Origin: Lachnospiraceae bacterium MD308
GTDB lineage: Bacteria > Bacillota > Clostridia > Lachnospirales > Lachnospiraceae
Length of the DNA: 50,416 nt
Reading direction: 5' to 3'
Assembly: GCA_010206225.2 (NCBI GenBank)
Contig: VIQU02000027.1
Span: forward strand, 1-50,416
In this document: positions 6,104 to 39,666 of the stretch, one piece after another
How positions within the stretch are numbered: position 1 is the stretch's first letter
Layout: every line of letters starts with the position of its first letter
Notes under the pieces: generated by a model
Databases searched by the model: none
The model's input: only the letters and a program-made list of their open reading frames with translations
Told to the model about the DNA's origin: nothing
Program-made: the position numbers and the translations under genes

Positions 6104-7540
6104 ATGTCGAATATTTTGAGAGTCACAACTCCGATGGCAGGGAATTATGACAACATGTCACAGCCGAGAGCCGATATGAACAACCGTGAAGATCCGCGCA
6201 TACAGGGTCCGGTGGTTCCCAACAAGGTTGTTCGTGCAGATGCAAGGAGTGATTCTGCCGCGGAGGAACAGAATGTAGGATTAAAATTCCAATATCAGTC
6301 TAATTTTGAGGGTTTTATCTCTCAGATGAAATCGGAAGGGGTAATGACCGAGGAGTTTGCCACTGTCCTTTTTGAACAGTTGAGTAATCAGGTGAAAGCA
6401 GGGCTTTCGGAAGGCTCGGCGCAGGAGATCGCGCAGTTTCTTGAGATGATTCAGGTGGATCCGCAGAATATGCTTGCCTTTTTGAAGGAGCAGGGGGATG
6501 GCGCCGTCCGTTTTCAGGGAGCATTTTTTTCATTGCTGCGTCAGGTGATGAACGAGACGAACAATGTGGAACTCAGGGCCGGGATATTGGATTTTATGAA
6601 GCGCTATACAGATATGGCGGAAGGAAAGCACATCCTTAAGGAGATAGAGCAGACCATAAAAGAATTAAAGAGCGGTATGCTTCAGAGCGGACGGGAAAAG
6701 ATGGAAGAGATGGAGCAGCAGCTGAAGTTCGGCGGCAATGCCGGGCCGGGAAGTACGCAGGAGAATGCCGCGCTGATAAAAGGAAAGATGCTGCCCTATC
6801 TGAATAAATACATCGGAGGCACTCATGACCGCGGCAATGTGCGTGAAGGTGCGGCTTTTTTAGCGGCTCTTACGGCGCGTTATGAGAACGGTGATGCGGC
6901 GAGAGTTCTTGAACGGTTTGAACAGCTGATGGAATACTCAGCTATGCAGAAGTATTTTAAGGGATTTGAAACGCAGAGCCTTCTGAAAGTGTTGGAATCT
7001 ACTGATTTTGAGAAAATGATCGGAAAGAATAAATGGAAGAAAGGCTTTGTGTCCATGATTCAGAATGGGATGCAGCAGGGAGCGAATATAGAACAGAAGC
7101 AGGTATTTAAGAATATGATGACTTCTATTCTACTGAATGAGAGCGTGTACATGCCGGTGCTCCACATGATGTTTCCGATGCAGGTGAACGGCAACCTGAC
7201 ATTCGCAGAGATGTGGGTGGATCCGGATGCGGGAAAGAATTCGGGTGAGAATGAAAATGAGCGGGTTATACAGGGATTGGTGAAGTTTGATATTCAGGAA
7301 TTGGGATTTTTTGATTTGTTTTTTGTGTATCAGGATAAAAATGTAAATATGCAGCTTAATTATCCGGACAGTCTTAAAGATAAGGAAAAGGAAATCCGAA
7401 ATAAAGTTGCAGAGGTACTTGCGGAGAATGGGCTTACCGGAAAGGAGTTGTTTTTCGGGAGCAGCAAGGAGTCTATAGCGATTTCAGAAGCATTTCCGCA
7501 GATATTTGAAAGGAAGAATTCGATCAATGTCAAGATTTAA
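6104..7540 (+). CDS. YlqG-like flagellar locus protein with FliK-like C-terminus
   Basis: This 478-residue, mostly helical, Gln/Met-rich protein has no signal peptide or membrane segment. Residues ~20-330 form helices with no family I can name. The last ~130 residues (LHMMFPMQVNGNLTFAEMWVDPD, then an IQGLVKFDIQELGFFDLFF strand pattern) resemble the beta-rich C-terminal domain of FliK-type proteins and B. subtilis YlqG. The next gene encodes an FlhB C-domain paralogue, the same pairing as ylqG-ylqH. FliK normally contacts the FlhB C-domain, so a substrate-specificity or export-control role is plausible but inferred. It starts a rightward unit divergent from cheA. Confidence 0.75.
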   Translation: MSNILRVTTPMAGNYDNMSQPRADMNNREDPRIQGPVVPNKVVRADARSDSAAEEQNVGLKFQYQSNFEGFISQMKSEGVMTEEFATVLFEQLSNQVKAGLSEGSAQEIAQFLEMIQVDPQNMLAFLKEQGDGAVRFQGAFFSLLRQVMNETNNVELRAGILDFMKRYTDMAEGKHILKEIEQTIKELKSGMLQSGREKMEEMEQQLKFGGNAGPGSTQENAALIKGKMLPYLNKYIGGTHDRGNVREGAAFLAALTARYENGDAARVLERFEQLMEYSAMQKYFKGFETQSLLKVLESTDFEKMIGKNKWKKGFVSMIQNGMQQGANIEQKQVFKNMMTSILLNESVYMPVLHMMFPMQVNGNLTFAEMWVDPDAGKNSGENENERVIQGLVKFDIQELGFFDLFFVYQDKNVNMQLNYPDSLKDKEKEIRNKVAEVLAENGLTGKELFFGSSKESIAISEAFPQIFERKNSINVKI

Positions 7541-7919
7541 CGATGTGCTGAACAAGAAGGCAGTTGCACTGTCTTATGACGAAAACAAGAACGCGGCACC
7601 GATTATCGTGGCCTCGGGAATGGGATACATAGCAGAGAAGATGGTAGAAGTGGCAAGGGAGTCCGGAGTTCCGGTCTATGAGGATAATTCTCTTGCTACG
7701 ATGCTGACGCAGCTTAATCTGGGAGCGGAGATACCGACAGAATTGTATCAGGCGATCATTGATATTTATATCTATTTCCTGAATTATGTTCCGGGAAAGA
7801 AAGAAGAAACGACTGCCGGAGAGACAGAAGAAAGAGAGGGCTCCGAAGCAGAGACGGCAGAAGATGTATCGGAAGCGGCGGAAGCCAAACCGGAGACAGA
7901 AGAATCTTCTGCCCCGTAA
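7527..7919 (+). CDS. ylqH: YlqH / FlhB C-terminal domain paralogue
   Basis: The protein (~130 aa) corresponds to the cytoplasmic domain of FlhB without its membrane part: KAVALSYDENKNAAPIIVASG, then MVEVARESGVPVYEDNSLATML, then a conserved IPTELYQAIIDIYIYF helix. Full FlhB (26562-27632) has NPTH at the cleavage site; here that segment is missing and the protein starts at the following strand, so it cannot self-cleave. The C-terminus is a Glu/Ala-rich tail of ~40 residues. I prefer ATG 7527, with GGAAG upstream, over an in-frame TTG at 7506. It overlaps the preceding gene by 14 bases, implying translational coupling. Confidence 0.85.
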   Translation: MSRFNDVLNKKAVALSYDENKNAAPIIVASGMGYIAEKMVEVARESGVPVYEDNSLATMLTQLNLGAEIPTELYQAIIDIYIYFLNYVPGKKEETTAGETEEREGSEAETAEDVSEAAEAKPETEESSAP

Positions 7920-33149: not shown

Positions 33150-33175
33150 TAAAAAAAAAGGATTTCTGCCGATAT
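33150..33175 (+). promoter_or_regulatory. Sigma-28 promoter of the cheV unit
   Basis: TAAA (33150-33153), 14 bases (A-rich), then GCCGATAT (33168-33175): an exact match to the flagellar sigma consensus. It is ~38 bases upstream of the cheV start. Confidence 0.9.
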
Positions 33176-33213: not shown

Positions 33214-34134
33214 ATGGCGAATACAGAGATACTTTTGGAATCTGGAACGAATGAAATAGAAATCATGGAATTTATGATTTATGGCGAATTATATGGTATT
33301 AATGTGGCAAAGGTAAAGGAGATCATGATGTCGGATAAAGTAAAGCCGATGCCGCATGCCCACCCATCGGTAGAAGGGATTTTTAAACCGCGTGATACGA
33401 TGCTTACAGTAGTTGACCTTCCGTTTTATCTGACGGGACAGAAGACAGAAAAGCAAGGAAGGGATCTGTTCGTTATTACGAATTTTAATAAAATGAACAT
33501 TGCGTTCCGCGTTCAGTCGGTTGTTGGGATTCAGAGGATTTCATGGAATGATATCCAGAAGCCTGACAAGACGCTGAACAAGGGGGAAGAAGGAGTTGCG
33601 ACAGGAATCGCCCAGTGCGGCGGAGAGCTTGTTACGATATTAGATTTTGAGAAGATTGTAGCTGAGATTGCTCCTGAAACAAGCATTCAGTTAGAAGAGA
33701 TAGATGCGCTTGGACAGCGTGCTAAAAATGAGGCAAGGATTATCTGTGCGGAGGATTCTATACTCTTGGCAAAGCTTATTGAACGTGCTCTCCATCAGGC
33801 AGGCTATGTCAATCTGATCCAGTTTAATAACGGACAGGAGGCATGGAATTATCTGCATGCTATTAAAGACTCTGATCCGGAAGAACTTCGTGAGAAAGCG
33901 GCACTTATTATTACAGATATAGAGATGCCGAAGATGGATGGACACAGGCTTACAAAGCTGGTTAAGTCAGATCCCAATTTAAAACAGATTCCGCTTATTA
34001 TCTTCTCCTCTCTGATCAGTCCGGAGATGGAGGTTAAGGGAAGAGAAATTGGGGCAGATGAACAACTCTCGAAACCAGAGATTGGGCATCTTGTAACTGT
34101 TATGGATGAATTGTTGACTAGGTGGGATGCGTAA
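33214..34134 (+). CDS. cheV: CheV, CheW-receiver chemotaxis coupling protein
   Basis: CheV couples receptors to CheA and adapts by phosphorylation. Residues ~15-155 form a CheW domain; ~175-306 form a receiver domain with acidic E180/D181 and phospho-acceptor D235 in IITDIEMP. The length (306 aa) is normal. It is first in a sigma-28-driven unit and overlaps the next gene by one base (TAATG). Confidence 0.96.
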   Translation: MANTEILLESGTNEIEIMEFMIYGELYGINVAKVKEIMMSDKVKPMPHAHPSVEGIFKPRDTMLTVVDLPFYLTGQKTEKQGRDLFVITNFNKMNIAFRVQSVVGIQRISWNDIQKPDKTLNKGEEGVATGIAQCGGELVTILDFEKIVAEIAPETSIQLEEIDALGQRAKNEARIICAEDSILLAKLIERALHQAGYVNLIQFNNGQEAWNYLHAIKDSDPEELREKAALIITDIEMPKMDGHRLTKLVKSDPNLKQIPLIIFSSLISPEMEVKGREIGADEQLSKPEIGHLVTVMDELLTRWDA

Positions 34135-35420
34135 TGGATAGATGCGTGGTAAGACAGGCGATTAAAGAAACGAAAACAGGTAAGATCATTGGTTATGAAT
34201 TGGTCTTTCAGGGCGGCAAGGATAGTATGTACAATAATAACGAAGCATCTGCAGCGGATACGATTTCTGATTTTTTGGTGGCGAACAGTGCAAAGATCGT
34301 AAATGACGGCTTAATGTTTGTGACATTTACCCCCTCTTTGCTTCTCCGTAATACTCCGAAGATGTTTGGGAAAGATAAAGTTATTATTCAGATTGAAGAT
34401 ACGGTGATTATTCATCCGCTGGCAATGCCGCTGATCAAAAAATATTGTGAAGCAGGATATAGATTCGCGATCAATGATTTTCAATTTACGCCAAAGTATT
34501 TCAGTATGCTGGATCATGCTTCCTTTATACGGGTTAATATGACCGGGTATGTGGAGAATATGCAGAAACAGCGGACAGTCCAGAACATCATAGAGATGGC
34601 AAAAGGATTTGGAAGAAAATGTATGGCTACGGAGGTTAATTCCAAGGAAACTTACGAAGCGGCCATGCGGCTTGATTTTGACTATCTTGAGGGAAGCTAT
34701 ATAGCTAACACTATGATTACCAAGGTCGATAAGGTGGAATATATGCAGGGTAACTTTTTCCAGCTTGTAATCGCGGTATCGAAGGATGAGCCGGATTTTG
34801 CGGCAGTAGAGGAGATTATAAGCCGTGATGCGGGTCTTACATATGCGTTGCTGCGTCTTGTTAACTCCGCATACTTTGCTTTGCGCACGAGAACGGCTTC
34901 CATACGTCAGGCATTGATCACACTTGGAATCGGACAGCTCAGACACTGGGTGTATATGCTGAGCTTTGATAAAGATAAGAGCGAAGGATCAGAGGAGATC
35001 TTAAAGATATCTTTCCTGCGTGCAAAGCTGGCATCAGAGCTTGTAAAAAGAGCGTCAGGCTGCAATATTTCCTCTAATGATGCGTATATGATGGGGATGT
35101 TTTCAACGTTAGATTATATGGTAAATGCACCTTTAGCTGAATTGCTTGAGGAGATTCCGGTGGCGGATGAGATTAAGGCGGCGCTGCTTGATGGAAGCGG
35201 GATGGCAGGAGCGCTGCAGAAGCTGGTGATTGCTTATGAGAAGGCAGATTGGAAGGCATGTAAGACCTATGCAGAAGAGCTTGGAATATCAAGTGAAGGG
35301 CTCGCCCAGATTTATGTAGACTGTGCAGAAGAGGTCAATGGAATATGGAACAGTCTGATGACAGAGATAGATTATCCGCAGGAAATCGAGAAATTAGAAA
35401 CTGAAAGCCCTGTAAAATGA
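34134..35420 (+). CDS. EAL-HDOD (YuxH-type) signalling protein, EAL degenerate
   Basis: A 428-residue protein with an N-terminal EAL-like domain (~1-195) and a C-terminal HDOD domain (~200-390). The EAL core is degenerate: the motif position reads YELVFQ instead of E-A/V-L-x-R, and the glutamate-rich active site is mostly lost (AINDF keeps a fold landmark), so c-di-GMP hydrolysis is unlikely. HDOD domains are found in signalling proteins without a settled biochemical role. ATG 34134 overlaps the cheV stop and has AGGTGGG upstream. An in-frame GTG at 34122 is less likely. Confidence 0.88.
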   Translation: MDRCVVRQAIKETKTGKIIGYELVFQGGKDSMYNNNEASAADTISDFLVANSAKIVNDGLMFVTFTPSLLLRNTPKMFGKDKVIIQIEDTVIIHPLAMPLIKKYCEAGYRFAINDFQFTPKYFSMLDHASFIRVNMTGYVENMQKQRTVQNIIEMAKGFGRKCMATEVNSKETYEAAMRLDFDYLEGSYIANTMITKVDKVEYMQGNFFQLVIAVSKDEPDFAAVEEIISRDAGLTYALLRLVNSAYFALRTRTASIRQALITLGIGQLRHWVYMLSFDKDKSEGSEEILKISFLRAKLASELVKRASGCNISSNDAYMMGMFSTLDYMVNAPLAELLEEIPVADEIKAALLDGSGMAGALQKLVIAYEKADWKACKTYAEELGISSEGLAQIYVDCAEEVNGIWNSLMTEIDYPQEIEKLETESPVK

Positions 35421-35473
35421 TATAACTTGGATAAGCTGACAAAGGCGAAGTGTCCTTGTCAGCTTATGTTATA
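35421..35473 (+). promoter_or_regulatory. Long inverted repeat upstream of parA
   Basis: ATAAGCTGACAA (35431-35442) pairs perfectly with TTGTCAGCTTAT (35456-35467), and outside it TATAAC (35421-35426) pairs with GTTATA (35468-35473), with a TTGG bulge. No U-tract follows; the ATAAATGGAGG ribosome site of parA begins right after it. It may be an RNA hairpin controlling read-through or translation, or a DNA operator. Confidence 0.65.
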
Positions 35474-35489: not shown

Positions 35490-36281
35490 GTGGCACATAC
35501 AATCGTATTGACAAACCAGAAGGGCGGAGTTGGGAAGACGACTACTTCTGCTGCAATTGCTGCCGGGCTGGCAAGAAAAGGATATAAAGTATTGGCTGTA
35601 GATATGGATCCGCAGGGGAATCTGGGCTTCAGCCTTGGAGTGGATATTGACAAGGGGGCGTCAATCTATGAAGGGCTCAAAGGGGATGCCACTGTCTATG
35701 AGATCATCCGCCGGATCAGTGACATTGACATTATCCAGTCTAATATACTTTTAAGCAGTGCGGAAGCTACTCTTAAAGGAGAGAACCGTGATCTGCTGCT
35801 TAAAAATCTTTTGGCGCCTGTGGAGAAATTATATGATTATATCATTATAGATACCCCTCCTGCATTTAATATTCTGACATTGAACGGATACAGTGCGGCG
35901 GATTACCTGATTATCCCTATGTCTGCCGAGATCTTGAGTCTGGTTGGCCTTGTGCAGCTTAAAGAGACTTATGAGACGGTCCGTCAGTCGGTGAATCCGC
36001 AGTTAAAGATTATGGGTATTATTCTGACGAAGTATGAGAAAAGGCGCAAACTTTCCCGGGATGTTCTTGAGATGGCGGGAACGGTGGCAGAACAGCTCAA
36101 TACAAAAGTATTTAAAACAGTTGTACGCAGCAGTGTGGCGGCGGCGGAGGCACCTGCTCATGGAGTGAATATATTTGAATATTCTGCAAAATCCGCTCCG
36201 GCGAAGGATTATGGAGCAATTGTGAAGGAAATTCTGCGGATAGTTGAGGAGGATGAGACAAATGGCAAGAAAGACGAATAA
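35490..36281 (+). CDS. parA: ParA/Soj-type ATPase of the flagellar-chemotaxis unit
   Basis: ParA-family ATPases position cargo through ATP-dependent dimerisation. The deviant Walker A is KGGVGKTT (residues 11-18), followed by VLAVDMDPQGNLGFSLGV and the Walker B-like DYIIIDTPPAF. It lacks FlhG/FleN-type features and is closer to Soj/ParA. GTG 35490 is preferred because GGAGG at 35477-35481 gives 8-base spacing; ATG 35475 overlaps that site. It overlaps the next gene by 20 bases. In Vibrio and Rhodobacter, ParA-like proteins position chemoreceptor arrays; a similar role here is inference. Confidence 0.9.
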   Translation: MAHTIVLTNQKGGVGKTTTSAAIAAGLARKGYKVLAVDMDPQGNLGFSLGVDIDKGASIYEGLKGDATVYEIIRRISDIDIIQSNILLSSAEATLKGENRDLLLKNLLAPVEKLYDYIIIDTPPAFNILTLNGYSAADYLIIPMSAEILSLVGLVQLKETYETVRQSVNPQLKIMGIILTKYEKRRKLSRDVLEMAGTVAEQLNTKVFKTVVRSSVAAAEAPAHGVNIFEYSAKSAPAKDYGAIVKEILRIVEEDETNGKKDE

Positions 36282-37053
36282 GACAGATCATGTATTAGGG
36301 CTTTTGGCGGGTAAGAGCGATGAAGTAAGTGCGGAAGAGGCAAAGAGAGGTGTGGCTGCAAATGAAGTGAAAACTGACGCAGCAGCTAGCTCTAACGTGC
36401 AGGTAGTCGCGAAACAGGAAGAGGATGAGGCGATTGCTGACACAGTAAAGCAGCTTCTCGAGGAAGAATTGGAAGCAGAAGATAGTGTAAGAATACCGGA
36501 AATAATTTTTGACGAGGAAGAGGAAGAGGAAGCTCTCAGAGCCGCTGAAGAAGAGGCACGGGAGATATTTGAAGAAGAGGAGAGAAGAGCTGCCGAGAGA
36601 GAAGCTGAGCAGGCAGAAAGGTCTGCGAAAGAGGCAAAGGAGGCCGAGGAAGCAGAAAGGATAGCGCAAGAGGAGAAAAAGGCAGCGGAAGAAGAAGCAC
36701 TCAGGAAAGCTGAGGAGGAAGCACTGAAAGCCGCGGAAGAGGAGGCGATGAAAGTGGAAAAAGAAAAGACCGCAGAAAAAGAATATGTATTTCTGAATGT
36801 TATGGAGACTCTGGTCCGGGAAAGAGTAGATACGTATATGGATCAGTTTGCAACCTGCCATTGTTCCAGGTGTAAAGCGGATATTATTGCACTTGCATTA
36901 ACAAGCCTGCCTTCAAAATATGTAGTTGTGAGCAGGAATGCAGCTACGCCGCTCATGAATTTTTATTCACAGCGGTATGCCGGAGCTATCACTGTAGAGA
37001 TTACAAAGGCATGTACGAGGGTAAAAGAGCATCCGCACCATGGCAGGGATTAA
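36262..37053 (+). CDS. Acidic coiled-coil protein with C-terminal ComFB domain
   Basis: A 263-residue protein in three parts. The N-terminus (1-35) has basic residues and an HVLGLLAG helix. The middle (~50-175) is a long, very acidic Glu/Ala/Lys coiled coil. The C-terminus (~177-250) is a ComFB-like domain with METLVRERVDTYMDQ, the cysteine cluster C199-H-C201-S-R-C204, and DIIALALTSLPSKYVV. ComFB-type domains have been linked to cyclic dinucleotide binding; I have not verified that here. It is translationally coupled to parA and is a likely ParA partner or adaptor. ATG 36262 has GAGGAGG upstream; TTG 36244 and ATG 36253 are alternatives. Confidence 0.8.
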   Translation: MARKTNKTDHVLGLLAGKSDEVSAEEAKRGVAANEVKTDAAASSNVQVVAKQEEDEAIADTVKQLLEEELEAEDSVRIPEIIFDEEEEEEALRAAEEEAREIFEEEERRAAEREAEQAERSAKEAKEAEEAERIAQEEKKAAEEEALRKAEEEALKAAEEEAMKVEKEKTAEKEYVFLNVMETLVRERVDTYMDQFATCHCSRCKADIIALALTSLPSKYVVVSRNAATPLMNFYSQRYAGAITVEITKACTRVKEHPHHGRD

Positions 37054-37185: not shown

Positions 37186-39666
37186 ATGGCATCAGTTTCA
37201 GGTACAAATAATTCCTATTCAAGTCTTTCTTCACAGATCAGAGGCTACGGCGGTCTTGCCAGCGGTCTTGACAGAGATAGCCTGATCGAACAGATGACTT
37301 CTGCTACACGCAGCAAGATTGCAAAGCAGGGGCAGCAGAGGACGAAGCTAGAATGGAAACAGGAAGCGATGAGAGAGATTACAGGTAAGATCTATAATTT
37401 TACTTCGGATTATACTTCTTATTCTTCTTCTAAAAACCTGCTTTCTTCTAATTTGTTTTCAAGGAATCAGGTGACGGCGGTTGGCGATAACAGTAAATAT
37501 GTTTCTGTATCGGGAACCGCATCGTCGTCGGTTAATATGTCTATTGCGGCAATAAAGCAGCTTGCGACGAACGCCAGACTGACAACAACAGGCAGTATTT
37601 CAAATGGCATCTTAAATACAGGGGAGATGAAGCTTGGCTCAGGCGGAGATCTGTCTGTAACAGAAGGTGTCAGTACGATTGCCGGCGATGTATTATATAT
37701 TAAGTATGGCACGACTAATTATTCCGTGAATCTGAAGGATACGGACGTTTATGATTATTCGACTCCTGAAAAAGCAGTTGAATCAATAAAAAAGGCGCTG
37801 CAGGAAGTGGAAGTCGGAAGCGGTTCAAACGCGCAGACATTGGGCGATATCATAGATGTTGATATGGTGGGCGGTAAAGTCAGATTCAAACTTGATGAGA
37901 CGAAAGCTTACGGTAATACGGTACAGCTTAACGGCGGTACAGGAAATATACTGCAGGATTTAGGATTCCTAGAGCCGGGAGAGAAGTTCAGCAACCTGAC
38001 AGATAAAGAGAAGACTATTACTGCAAATGGTCTTATAGCACCGGATGACGCTGAGTTAATAGTTGAGAAAACATTGGCGCAGCGTTTGAGTAAATCGCAG
38101 ATTAATTTTAGCTATAACGGACAGTCCAAGCAGATTACATTAGGCAATTATAATGACTGGGCATCGATTGAAGATGTTCAGAAGGATTTACAAAATAAAC
38201 TGGATCAGTCGTTTGGAAAAGGGCGAATTAAAGTAGAGCTGGATAAAGCCGCGGATGATTCTTCTGCAAGTTTCTCATTTAAAACAACGAAACCAAACGG
38301 AGACGATGATACTACCTCTGTGTTGTCTATCAAAGGAGGAACAGGGACGATTATCGGTAACAGCGGTGCGTTTGGGATTGTAGCAGGTACTTCTAACCGT
38401 CTGAATCAGTCGGCGACTATAGCGAATGCCGGTTTTAAAAATGCTGATAAATTTAAAGAACTGTTAAAGAGCGATGACACTTACTATCTTAATATTAATG
38501 GCAAAGAAGTAAAGGGAATTACAAAAGACAGCACAGTGAAAGAGATCATTGATAAGATTAATGCTACAGAGGGTATTGGAGTTAATGTCTCATACCAGGA
38601 GATGTCAGACCGTTTTGTGATAACTTCCACTGAAGACGGAGAAAGCGGAAATATTGAAATTGAAGATGTACCCGACAATCTGGCGCTCTATCTGTTTGGA
38701 AAAGGATCGAACCAGTATACGAATGTAACGGATAATACGGATATTCCGGGTACAGTATATGAAGAAGGCAAGGATGCGATTGTTGCAGTAAAGTATCCGG
38801 GATCGGATGAAGAAATAGAGCTTACCCGGGGAAGCAATACCTTCTCAATGGATGGGCTGAACGTAACGCTGAAAGGGACGTTCGGCTATAAAGACGGCGA
38901 GATAGATAAGGATGCGGAAGCGATCACATTCAATGCAGAAGTAGATGCAGATAAAGCAGTGGATGCAGTAAAGGGCATGGTTGACGCTTTTAATGAGATT
39001 CTTGAACTTGTCAATACGCAGGTTAAGACGAAACCTGCCCGGGATTCGAGCCACAATGGATACGATCCTCTAACAGACGAACAGAAAGCCGAGATGACTG
39101 ACGACCAGATTGAGAAATGGGAAGAGAAGGCGAAACAGGGAATTCTGTTTGCAGATACGGATCTGCGGCTGATGGCTGACAATCTGAGATCGATTATTAA
39201 TAGTGGGAATAGTTCTGCGCTTTCCAGCATGGGCATATCCGTTTCTACGAATTACAGTGACAACGGCAAGCTGGTATTTGACGAGACAAAATTCAGAACA
39301 GCGCTGCAGACAGATCCGGAGGGAGTTCAGGAAGCATTTGCAAAAGCGACGTCCACGGATGCGAATGGCAATACAACTCAGGGCGGCCTGATGGTAAGAA
39401 TCAAAAGTGTTATGGATAAATATGGTTCTATGACCGGTGCAACCAAAGGAATATTAGTTGAGCGTGCGGGTTCTATCTATGCACCGACAACTGTTCTGTC
39501 AAACAGTATCCAGAAGCAGATGGAGCGACTGGATGATTATATCGAACGGCTGCAGGATAAGCTGGAGACAGAAACTGATAGATATATCTCACAGTTTACT
39601 TCCTTAGAAACTTTGATCTCCCAGATGAATAATCAGAGCAGTTATCTGAGTTCAATGTTTGCTTAG
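37186..39666 (+). CDS. fliD: FliD, filament cap protein
   Basis: FliD caps the filament and folds flagellin into it. The N-terminal domain (GGLASGLDRDSLIEQMT, then EWKQEAMREITGKI) and the C-terminal coiled coil (~775-826) are typical. A flagellin hook IN-type motif lies near residues 430-480 (YLNINGKEVKGITKDSTVKEIIDKIN). At 826 residues it is at the long end for the family because of an enlarged, Asp/Gly/Thr-rich surface region between. It is first in a sigma-28 unit with fliS. Confidence 0.95.
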   Translation: MASVSGTNNSYSSLSSQIRGYGGLASGLDRDSLIEQMTSATRSKIAKQGQQRTKLEWKQEAMREITGKIYNFTSDYTSYSSSKNLLSSNLFSRNQVTAVGDNSKYVSVSGTASSSVNMSIAAIKQLATNARLTTTGSISNGILNTGEMKLGSGGDLSVTEGVSTIAGDVLYIKYGTTNYSVNLKDTDVYDYSTPEKAVESIKKALQEVEVGSGSNAQTLGDIIDVDMVGGKVRFKLDETKAYGNTVQLNGGTGNILQDLGFLEPGEKFSNLTDKEKTITANGLIAPDDAELIVEKTLAQRLSKSQINFSYNGQSKQITLGNYNDWASIEDVQKDLQNKLDQSFGKGRIKVELDKAADDSSASFSFKTTKPNGDDDTTSVLSIKGGTGTIIGNSGAFGIVAGTSNRLNQSATIANAGFKNADKFKELLKSDDTYYLNINGKEVKGITKDSTVKEIIDKINATEGIGVNVSYQEMSDRFVITSTEDGESGNIEIEDVPDNLALYLFGKGSNQYTNVTDNTDIPGTVYEEGKDAIVAVKYPGSDEEIELTRGSNTFSMDGLNVTLKGTFGYKDGEIDKDAEAITFNAEVDADKAVDAVKGMVDAFNEILELVNTQVKTKPARDSSHNGYDPLTDEQKAEMTDDQIEKWEEKAKQGILFADTDLRLMADNLRSIINSGNSSALSSMGISVSTNYSDNGKLVFDETKFRTALQTDPEGVQEAFAKATSTDANGNTTQGGLMVRIKSVMDKYGSMTGATKGILVERAGSIYAPTTVLSNSIQKQMERLDDYIERLQDKLETETDRYISQFTSLETLISQMNNQSSYLSSMFA

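Follow-up and report, generated by a model that had tools for sequence, protein, structure and literature searches.

Introduction

Proteins of the ParA superfamily are encoded with several motility systems. In FlhF-FlhG, an SRP-type GTPase goes with the ATPase FlhG, which is described as carrying a DQAxxLR helix at its N-terminus; the 2025 review that describes this helix also raises, for enteric bacteria, the question of flagellar placement without FlhF/FlhG (PMC12826062). PpfA and ParC are described as ATPases that position chemoreceptor arrays (PMC10241942). For ParB and other partners, a positively charged N-terminus has been shown or suggested to contact and stimulate the ParA-type ATPase (PMC12462528, PMC10241942). 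ComFB proteins of cyanobacteria are reported to bind c-di-AMP and c-di-GMP (PMC12313861).

Here we analyse a ParA ATPase gene and an adjoining ComFB gene in the motility cluster of Lachnospiraceae bacterium MD308. The window is the whole stretch of 50,416 nucleotides that was analysed; its source genome amounts to 4.35 Mb in 156 contigs and is 97% complete. In listings of mainly freely accessible literature on ComFB, ParA, FlhF/FlhG and Lachnospiraceae flagella, we met no description of a ParA-ComFB pair. We favour, with a probability of roughly 0.6, the reading that the pair is a ParA/adaptor module which positions the motility machinery in an alternative, FlhF-less flagellar lineage of Lachnospiraceae and their relatives.

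Results

Organization of the parA-adaptor pair

The features of the locus are as follows.

33214..34134, + strand: cheV (CheW plus receiver), a neighbour
34122..35420, + strand: EAL-HDOD gene, EAL degenerate by eye; adjoins many pair loci, not all
35431..35467, + strand: stem-loop between EAL-HDOD and parA, found in 5 close relatives
35490..36281, + strand: parA, Soj-type ParA ATPase, 263 aa, deviant Walker A KGGVGKTT
36262..37053, + strand: adaptor (ccComFB), 263 aa
36262..36309, + strand: N-terminal basic/aliphatic motif, residues 1-16 (MARKTNKTDHVLGLLA), proposed ParA-contact peptide; helix 7-15 predicted
36394..36471, + strand: second conserved short motif by eye, residues 45-70 (NVQVV..DEAIADTVKQLLEEEL), predicted helix 52-75
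36514..36765, + strand: Glu/Ala-rich long helix, residues 85-168; spacer of variable length, not conserved
36784..37041, + strand: ComFB domain, residues 175-260, with C199/C201/C204 and P258/H260; putative metal site
37186..39666, + strand: fliD, a neighbour in most pair loci

The overlap of 20 bases between the two genes, which an earlier note on this DNA had reported, was confirmed by their coordinates. Translation of parA starts at a GTG (35490) with a GGAGG 5′ of it, and that of the adaptor gene at an ATG (36262). The order on the + strand is cheC, cheD, cheV and EAL-HDOD, then the pair, then fliD. The pair is on the same strand as cheV and downstream of it. That it belongs to the cheV unit, as the earlier note stated, is plausible, but a strong hairpin intervenes between EAL-HDOD and parA. 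This stem-loop (−19.9 kcal/mol, equalled by 0 of 200 shuffles) was present in the window and the five close relatives and was not detected in ten further loci checked. Scans for sigma-70 promoters and terminators gave no more matches than shuffled sequences. A sigma-28-like site at 33150-33174, 64 bases upstream of cheV, was at chance level and was set aside, since the window holds two such sites against 1.77 expected and only three of the 16 loci checked, the window among them, have one upstream of cheV. Elsewhere in the window, a short protein at 7506-7919 corresponds to the C-terminal part of FlhB only (PF01312 positions 262-334).

The ATPase descends from the Soj side

The parA product matched AAA_31 in Pfam (3.6e-51). 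Its KGGVGKTT, DxDPQGN and Walker B IIIDTPP motifs are invariant or nearly so in 30 sequences. In the ParA tree, from which four near-copies were excluded, the 32 ParAs of pair loci form one clade (94/99) that stands beside the Soj proteins from genomes of this kind (85/72), and the FlhGs (12 sampled of 84) are placed far from it. An AlphaFold model of the protein (pLDDT 90.4) gave a Soj as its top Foldseek match (TM 0.91), with TMq of 0.89-0.91 to Soj/ParA structures and the FlhG at rank 33 (TM 0.75). Searches of the PDB by sequence for receptor, ATPase and ComFB structures returned nothing of note beyond Soj/ParA-type proteins and the relatives 4wai/8hja. The N-terminal DQAxxLR helix of FlhG is absent, the protein beginning MAHTIVLTNQKGG, and by eye no extra amphipathic helix for membrane targeting follows the ParA domain. 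The ATPase of the pair thus descends from the Soj side rather than from FlhG, and both the Soj-type Walker motif and the separation from FlhG that had been read from the sequence were borne out.

Two arginines that we take to be DNA-binding in Soj were compared; one is kept (R185) and the other is Ala, so nucleoid binding by this ParA is uncertain. When the source genome was searched with ParA, five matches were found, namely parA itself, a Soj beside Spo0J and three others.

The adaptor joins a short N-terminal motif to a ComFB domain

Pfam found ComFB alone in the adaptor (PF10719, residues 179-258, 1.4e-17, 64 bits against a gathering score of 25), and no ParB, receptor or CheW domain; this is the one ComFB domain that a Pfam search found in the source genome. 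The three cysteines C199/C201/C204, noted earlier, and the C-terminal P258/H260 are invariant in 28 aligned sequences, the window included. A fourth cysteine (KAC) was ruled out as a ligand, as it is not invariant. The model of the adaptor (pLDDT 80.8, pTM 0.50) predicts a helix at 7-15, disorder at 20-51, a helix at 52-75, one long helix of 84 residues at 85-168 and the ComFB domain at 175-260. By fold, the adaptor matched 4wai (TMt 0.79) and 8hja (TMt 0.56), and its CxC..C aligns in B. subtilis ComFB, where this motif presumably binds zinc.

Conservation is confined to both ends of the adaptor and part of the short helix, and is low in the spacer. In relatives the ComFB domain starts anywhere in residues 64-391 of the open frame, and the region preceding it is often rich in Pro, Ser and Thr. 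The earlier note had described about 125 residues of Glu/Ala-rich coiled coil; a long helix is indeed predicted, but over 84 residues, and relatives do not conserve it. The Glu/Ala-rich helix is a local feature of the window's adaptor, and a coiled coil as the functional core was rejected because its length and composition vary freely.

The pair is conserved at flagellar loci

The neighbourhood was mapped by tblastn of the window genes on 51 loci (16 contigs and 35 regions around ComFB matches). Across this map the pair sits in flagellar/chemotaxis loci. Flagellar genes lie on the stretch in 47 of the 48 widely mapped pair loci (36 of the first set and 12 at order level); in the remaining locus, L036, the pair is alone on its 11.6 kb. 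The two genes are adjacent and co-directional in all 33 loci measured, with a gap of at most 15 bp in 31 of them, and in several genomes the pair is oriented against its neighbours as a unit. The two genes thus form a unit that is conserved next to flagellar genes, and the recurrence in related genomes on which the earlier note had made its reading depend was found.

This neighbourhood also bears on the view that the pair is what remains of a ParAB-like partition system from a mobile element and lies in a flagellar locus by chance. The Soj-like ATPase would suit such an origin, but the adaptor has no ParB domain and, because the neighbourhood is conserved, we strongly disfavour this explanation and regard it as very improbable.

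In a sample of 200 Lachnospiraceae genomes, 37 ComFB matches were found in 34 genomes. Eighteen of them, in 18 genomes and with the window's own included, adjoin a ParA. The 19 without ParA comprise 16 short ComFBs (87-127 residues where BLAST located them), two fusions of a receiver to ComFB (G080, G188) and G162. The short ComFB of G196 was missed by BLAST, and the 15 kb examined for it held no ParA. By eye, the fusions lie at 8964-9632 of L065 and 9398-10060 of L066, both from FlhF-positive genomes. FlhA is present in all 34 ComFB genomes, though 90 of the 200 lack it; even the short stand-alone ComFBs track flagella.

At class level, 112 of 391 genomes had a ComFB match, and the three long matches beyond the window (G358, G440, G316) carry the pair, G358 and G316 belonging to other families. 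The order-level search placed 38 of 392 genomes above a strict threshold, and the family of G358 accounts for 26 of these.

The pair and FlhF occur in different flagellar lineages

FlhA was found in 110 of the 200 family genomes (112 matches minus G102 and G174, which are weak or partial) and FlhF in 89 (88 above the cut-off of 174.15 bits, plus G103 at 170.5 bits); all 89 have FlhA. The pair occurs in 18 of the 21 genomes with FlhA but not FlhF, and in none of the 89 with FlhF. Of these 21, 19 have a ComFB; the exceptions to the pair are G149 and G199 (70% complete), without ComFB, and G162, whose ComFB has no ParA. Any ComFB in an FlhF-positive genome (15 genomes) stands without an adjacent ParA, that of G115 being at a contig edge. 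The FlhF profile had no match above the cut-off in the source genome or in 19 further pair genomes, two of which are G057 and G077 again, so that the exclusion covers the 200 family genomes and these 19. The earlier note had flhF missing from the locus, which agrees with the lack of a match in the 97% complete genome.

In 84 of the 89 FlhF-positive genomes the flhA-flhF segment includes a KGGVGK ATPase, which we interpret as FlhG; three of the five misses fall at contig ends, and G047 and G009 do not. In the window the gene after flhA encodes a sigma factor. The further claim that flhG is missing from the locus holds as far as this gene and the ATPase of the pair are concerned, neither being FlhG.

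As seen in the FlhA tree (117 rows), the sequences fall into two deep groups: a P-type of 26 ComFB-bearing rows and G149, and an F-type of the 89 FlhF rows and G199. One bacterial family thus holds two deeply split flagellar systems. The exclusion of FlhF and the pair reflects a single exchange of flagellar lineage and not many independent swaps, so an uncorrected Fisher test on it overstates the case; since all of it goes back to one deep split of FlhA, it argues only weakly for functional replacement. Kinship by Soj and by FlhA is discordant: in the Soj part of the ParA tree (11 Soj only) G111 goes with G046/G149, and G148 with G104/G038. This suggests that the flagellar loci, the pair included, moved between genomes.

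The N-terminal motif of the adaptor is lost with the adjacent ParA

The adaptor starts with the motif M-A-R/K-K-T-N-K-T-x-H-V-L-N-L-L (type I). In the first set, a motif was present in all 36 ComFBs adjacent to ParA, 33 of type I and three of type II, the latter being another basic N-terminus seen in three genomes (G015, G046, G148). These 36 loci represent 34 distinct genomes, as two contigs were fetched twice. The pattern was derived from this set and then widened twice: the strict form fits 31 of 36, and the relaxed form, set after the five misses were viewed, 33 of 36. Neither motif was found in the 17 ComFBs without adjacent ParA, 16 of which lie away from flagellar genes within the mapped stretch.

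The order-level follow-up brought 31 genomes new to the analysis, of which G879 was left out of the motif count, its locus being cut by a contig end. The motif was present in 25 of 25 genomes with ParA at the locus. The relaxed pattern of the first set fits 24 of them, and the remaining genome has Thr where the pattern had Asn/Ser; on 22 ParA-bearing loci a narrower ComFB pattern had given 15 of 22, and the final reading gave the motif in 22 of 22. The motif was absent, by eye, from the N-termini of the five genomes without ParA at the locus (G749, G833, G882, G915, G928). Sisters of the first three, G657 and G763, carry both ParA and motif.

With G162, six ComFBs of flagellar loci stand without adjacent ParA, none of them has the motif, and they map to three distinct positions in the FlhA tree; G149, from which ComFB is absent altogether, marks a fourth position at which the pair is missing. 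The loss of ParA refers to the whole genome for G162 and G149 and to the locus for the other five. Where the ATPase gene leaves the cluster, the N-terminal motif of the adaptor is also missing. Because the motif is present beside ParA and absent where ParA is not adjacent, the N-terminal 16 or so residues of the adaptor are very probably its ParA contact. The short basic N-terminus had already been proposed as the part that faces ParA, and the counts (36/36 and 25/25 against 0/6) support that proposal.

All six ParA-less loci kept the ComFB domain and a stretch resembling the second helix, which therefore probably have some ParA-independent role at the flagellar locus. As ParA left the locus at least three times with flagellar genes and ComFB staying, and G149 lacks ComFB, the module is dispensable.

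Flagella or chemoreceptor arrays as cargo

The partner of PpfA is TlpT and that of ParC is ParP, and the pair might, like these, position chemoreceptor arrays only. Among 20 P-type family genomes the pair was present in all 17 that have CheW domains and receptors, against one of the three that lack them (Fisher 0.016, uncorrected for kinship). G148 fails PF02895, yet CheW domains and a CheA-like match were found in it. The pair often stands beside cheV, cheC and cheD, and its ParA looks nucleoid-type, as PpfA does. On the other side, no CheA, CheW domain or receptor was found in G015 (99% complete, 130 contigs), which is flagellated and bears the pair; the five order-level genomes keep cheC/cheD/cheV at loci without ParA; and the adaptor itself has neither receptor nor CheW domain. 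We consider a role in arrays only unlikely. A tie of ParA to chemotaxis, first backed by G162 and G149, which lack both, was contradicted by G015 and further weakened by the five order-level genomes. G015 thus argues against a role in arrays alone, and G749 and the others, unless they carry a ParA elsewhere, argue against a need for ParA wherever che genes occur; we keep both flagellum and array as possible cargo of a positioning module and put the flagellum first. At 3162-10599 of L235 (G148, pair-bearing) a divergent chemotaxis cluster lies near a GGDEF match.

Cyclic dinucleotides

GGDEF domains were found in all 21 genomes searched, and from the three matches in the source genome c-di-GMP may exist there. 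Term searches of PMC13075795 and PMC10519070 for the residues of CdgR yielded none. The EAL domain of the neighbouring EAL-HDOD protein aligns with the profile over its C-terminal half only (119-235 of 236) and has NDFQ; an active EAL domain has DDFG. The ComFB relative 8hja, crystallised with c-di-GMP, has no CxCxxC in its aligned part. On these two grounds the nucleotide-responsive part of the pair's function, as the earlier note had it, is weakly based; what that note said of a unit beside flagella, of an ATPase that is not FlhG, of the missing FlhF and of the N-terminal contact fared better.

The same observations bear on a signalling switch, in which ComFB would sense a cyclic dinucleotide or metal and ParA would regulate a motility protein without moving any cargo. 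Nucleotide binding by cyanobacterial ComFB, the GGDEF domains and the ComFB domain kept at ParA-less flagellar loci are in keeping with it. The reported binding, however, concerns cyanobacterial proteins, 8hja differs in the cysteine motif and the adjacent EAL looks degenerate, and we hold such a switch to be quite improbable.

Discussion

The reading that we prefer, a module that positions the motility machinery, would work as follows. The ParA paralogue, of near-Soj ancestry, would alternate between two states, one free and the other a dimer with ATP bound that sits on a surface, probably that of the nucleoid. The first 16 or so residues of the adaptor would dock on the ATPase and stimulate hydrolysis, as ParB N-termini do with ParA. 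The variable spacer would set this peptide apart from the ComFB domain, which, with the second short conserved helix, may hold some part of the motility machinery. The module would thereby set how many flagella there are, how they are spaced or how they are inherited, and possibly the same for chemoreceptor arrays, where other Lachnospiraceae use FlhF/FlhG. More tentatively, and with doubt on our part, a system unrelated to FlhF/FlhG might place a whole flagellar lineage, its ComFB domain being attached to the motility machinery, sensing a cyclic dinucleotide or metal and driving the Soj-derived ATPase through the N-terminal peptide; second messengers would then govern the site or the number of the flagella.

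The pair offers a two-gene candidate for flagellar placement free of FlhF/FlhG in gut commensals, and it would give ComFB a role beyond competence and pili. It comes with a predicted 16-residue contact peptide, and sister genomes that have or lack the ATPase at this locus serve as built-in controls.

Compared with known systems, positioning by a ParA is of a known kind, and the adaptor and the setting are new. The pair resembles FlhF-FlhG in that the flagellar locus encodes its ATPase, a member of the superfamily to which FlhG belongs, and FlhF and the pair are mutually exclusive in the 200-genome sample. It differs from FlhF-FlhG in that its ATPase is on the Soj side, no SRP-type GTPase belongs to it, its partner is a ComFB protein and it lies near fliD and not after flhA. 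As in PpfA-TlpT and ParC-ParP, a ParA-type ATPase and a dedicated partner are encoded in a motility/chemotaxis locus, but here the partner is not receptor- or CheW-like and the pair persists in G015, where no chemotaxis genes were found. Soj-Spo0J (ParAB) includes the nearest relatives of the ATPase, and Spo0J of the same genomes starts with a similar basic/aliphatic N-terminus (e.g. MAARKKGLGKGLDSLIP); however, the adaptor has no ParB domain, and the source genome holds a separate Soj-Spo0J. With ComFB/CdgR, finally, the adaptor has the ComFB fold in common, sharing the CxC..C with B. subtilis ComFB, but its ComFB domain stands behind a spacer and a putative ParA-contact peptide, and its gene lies in a flagellar and not a competence cluster.
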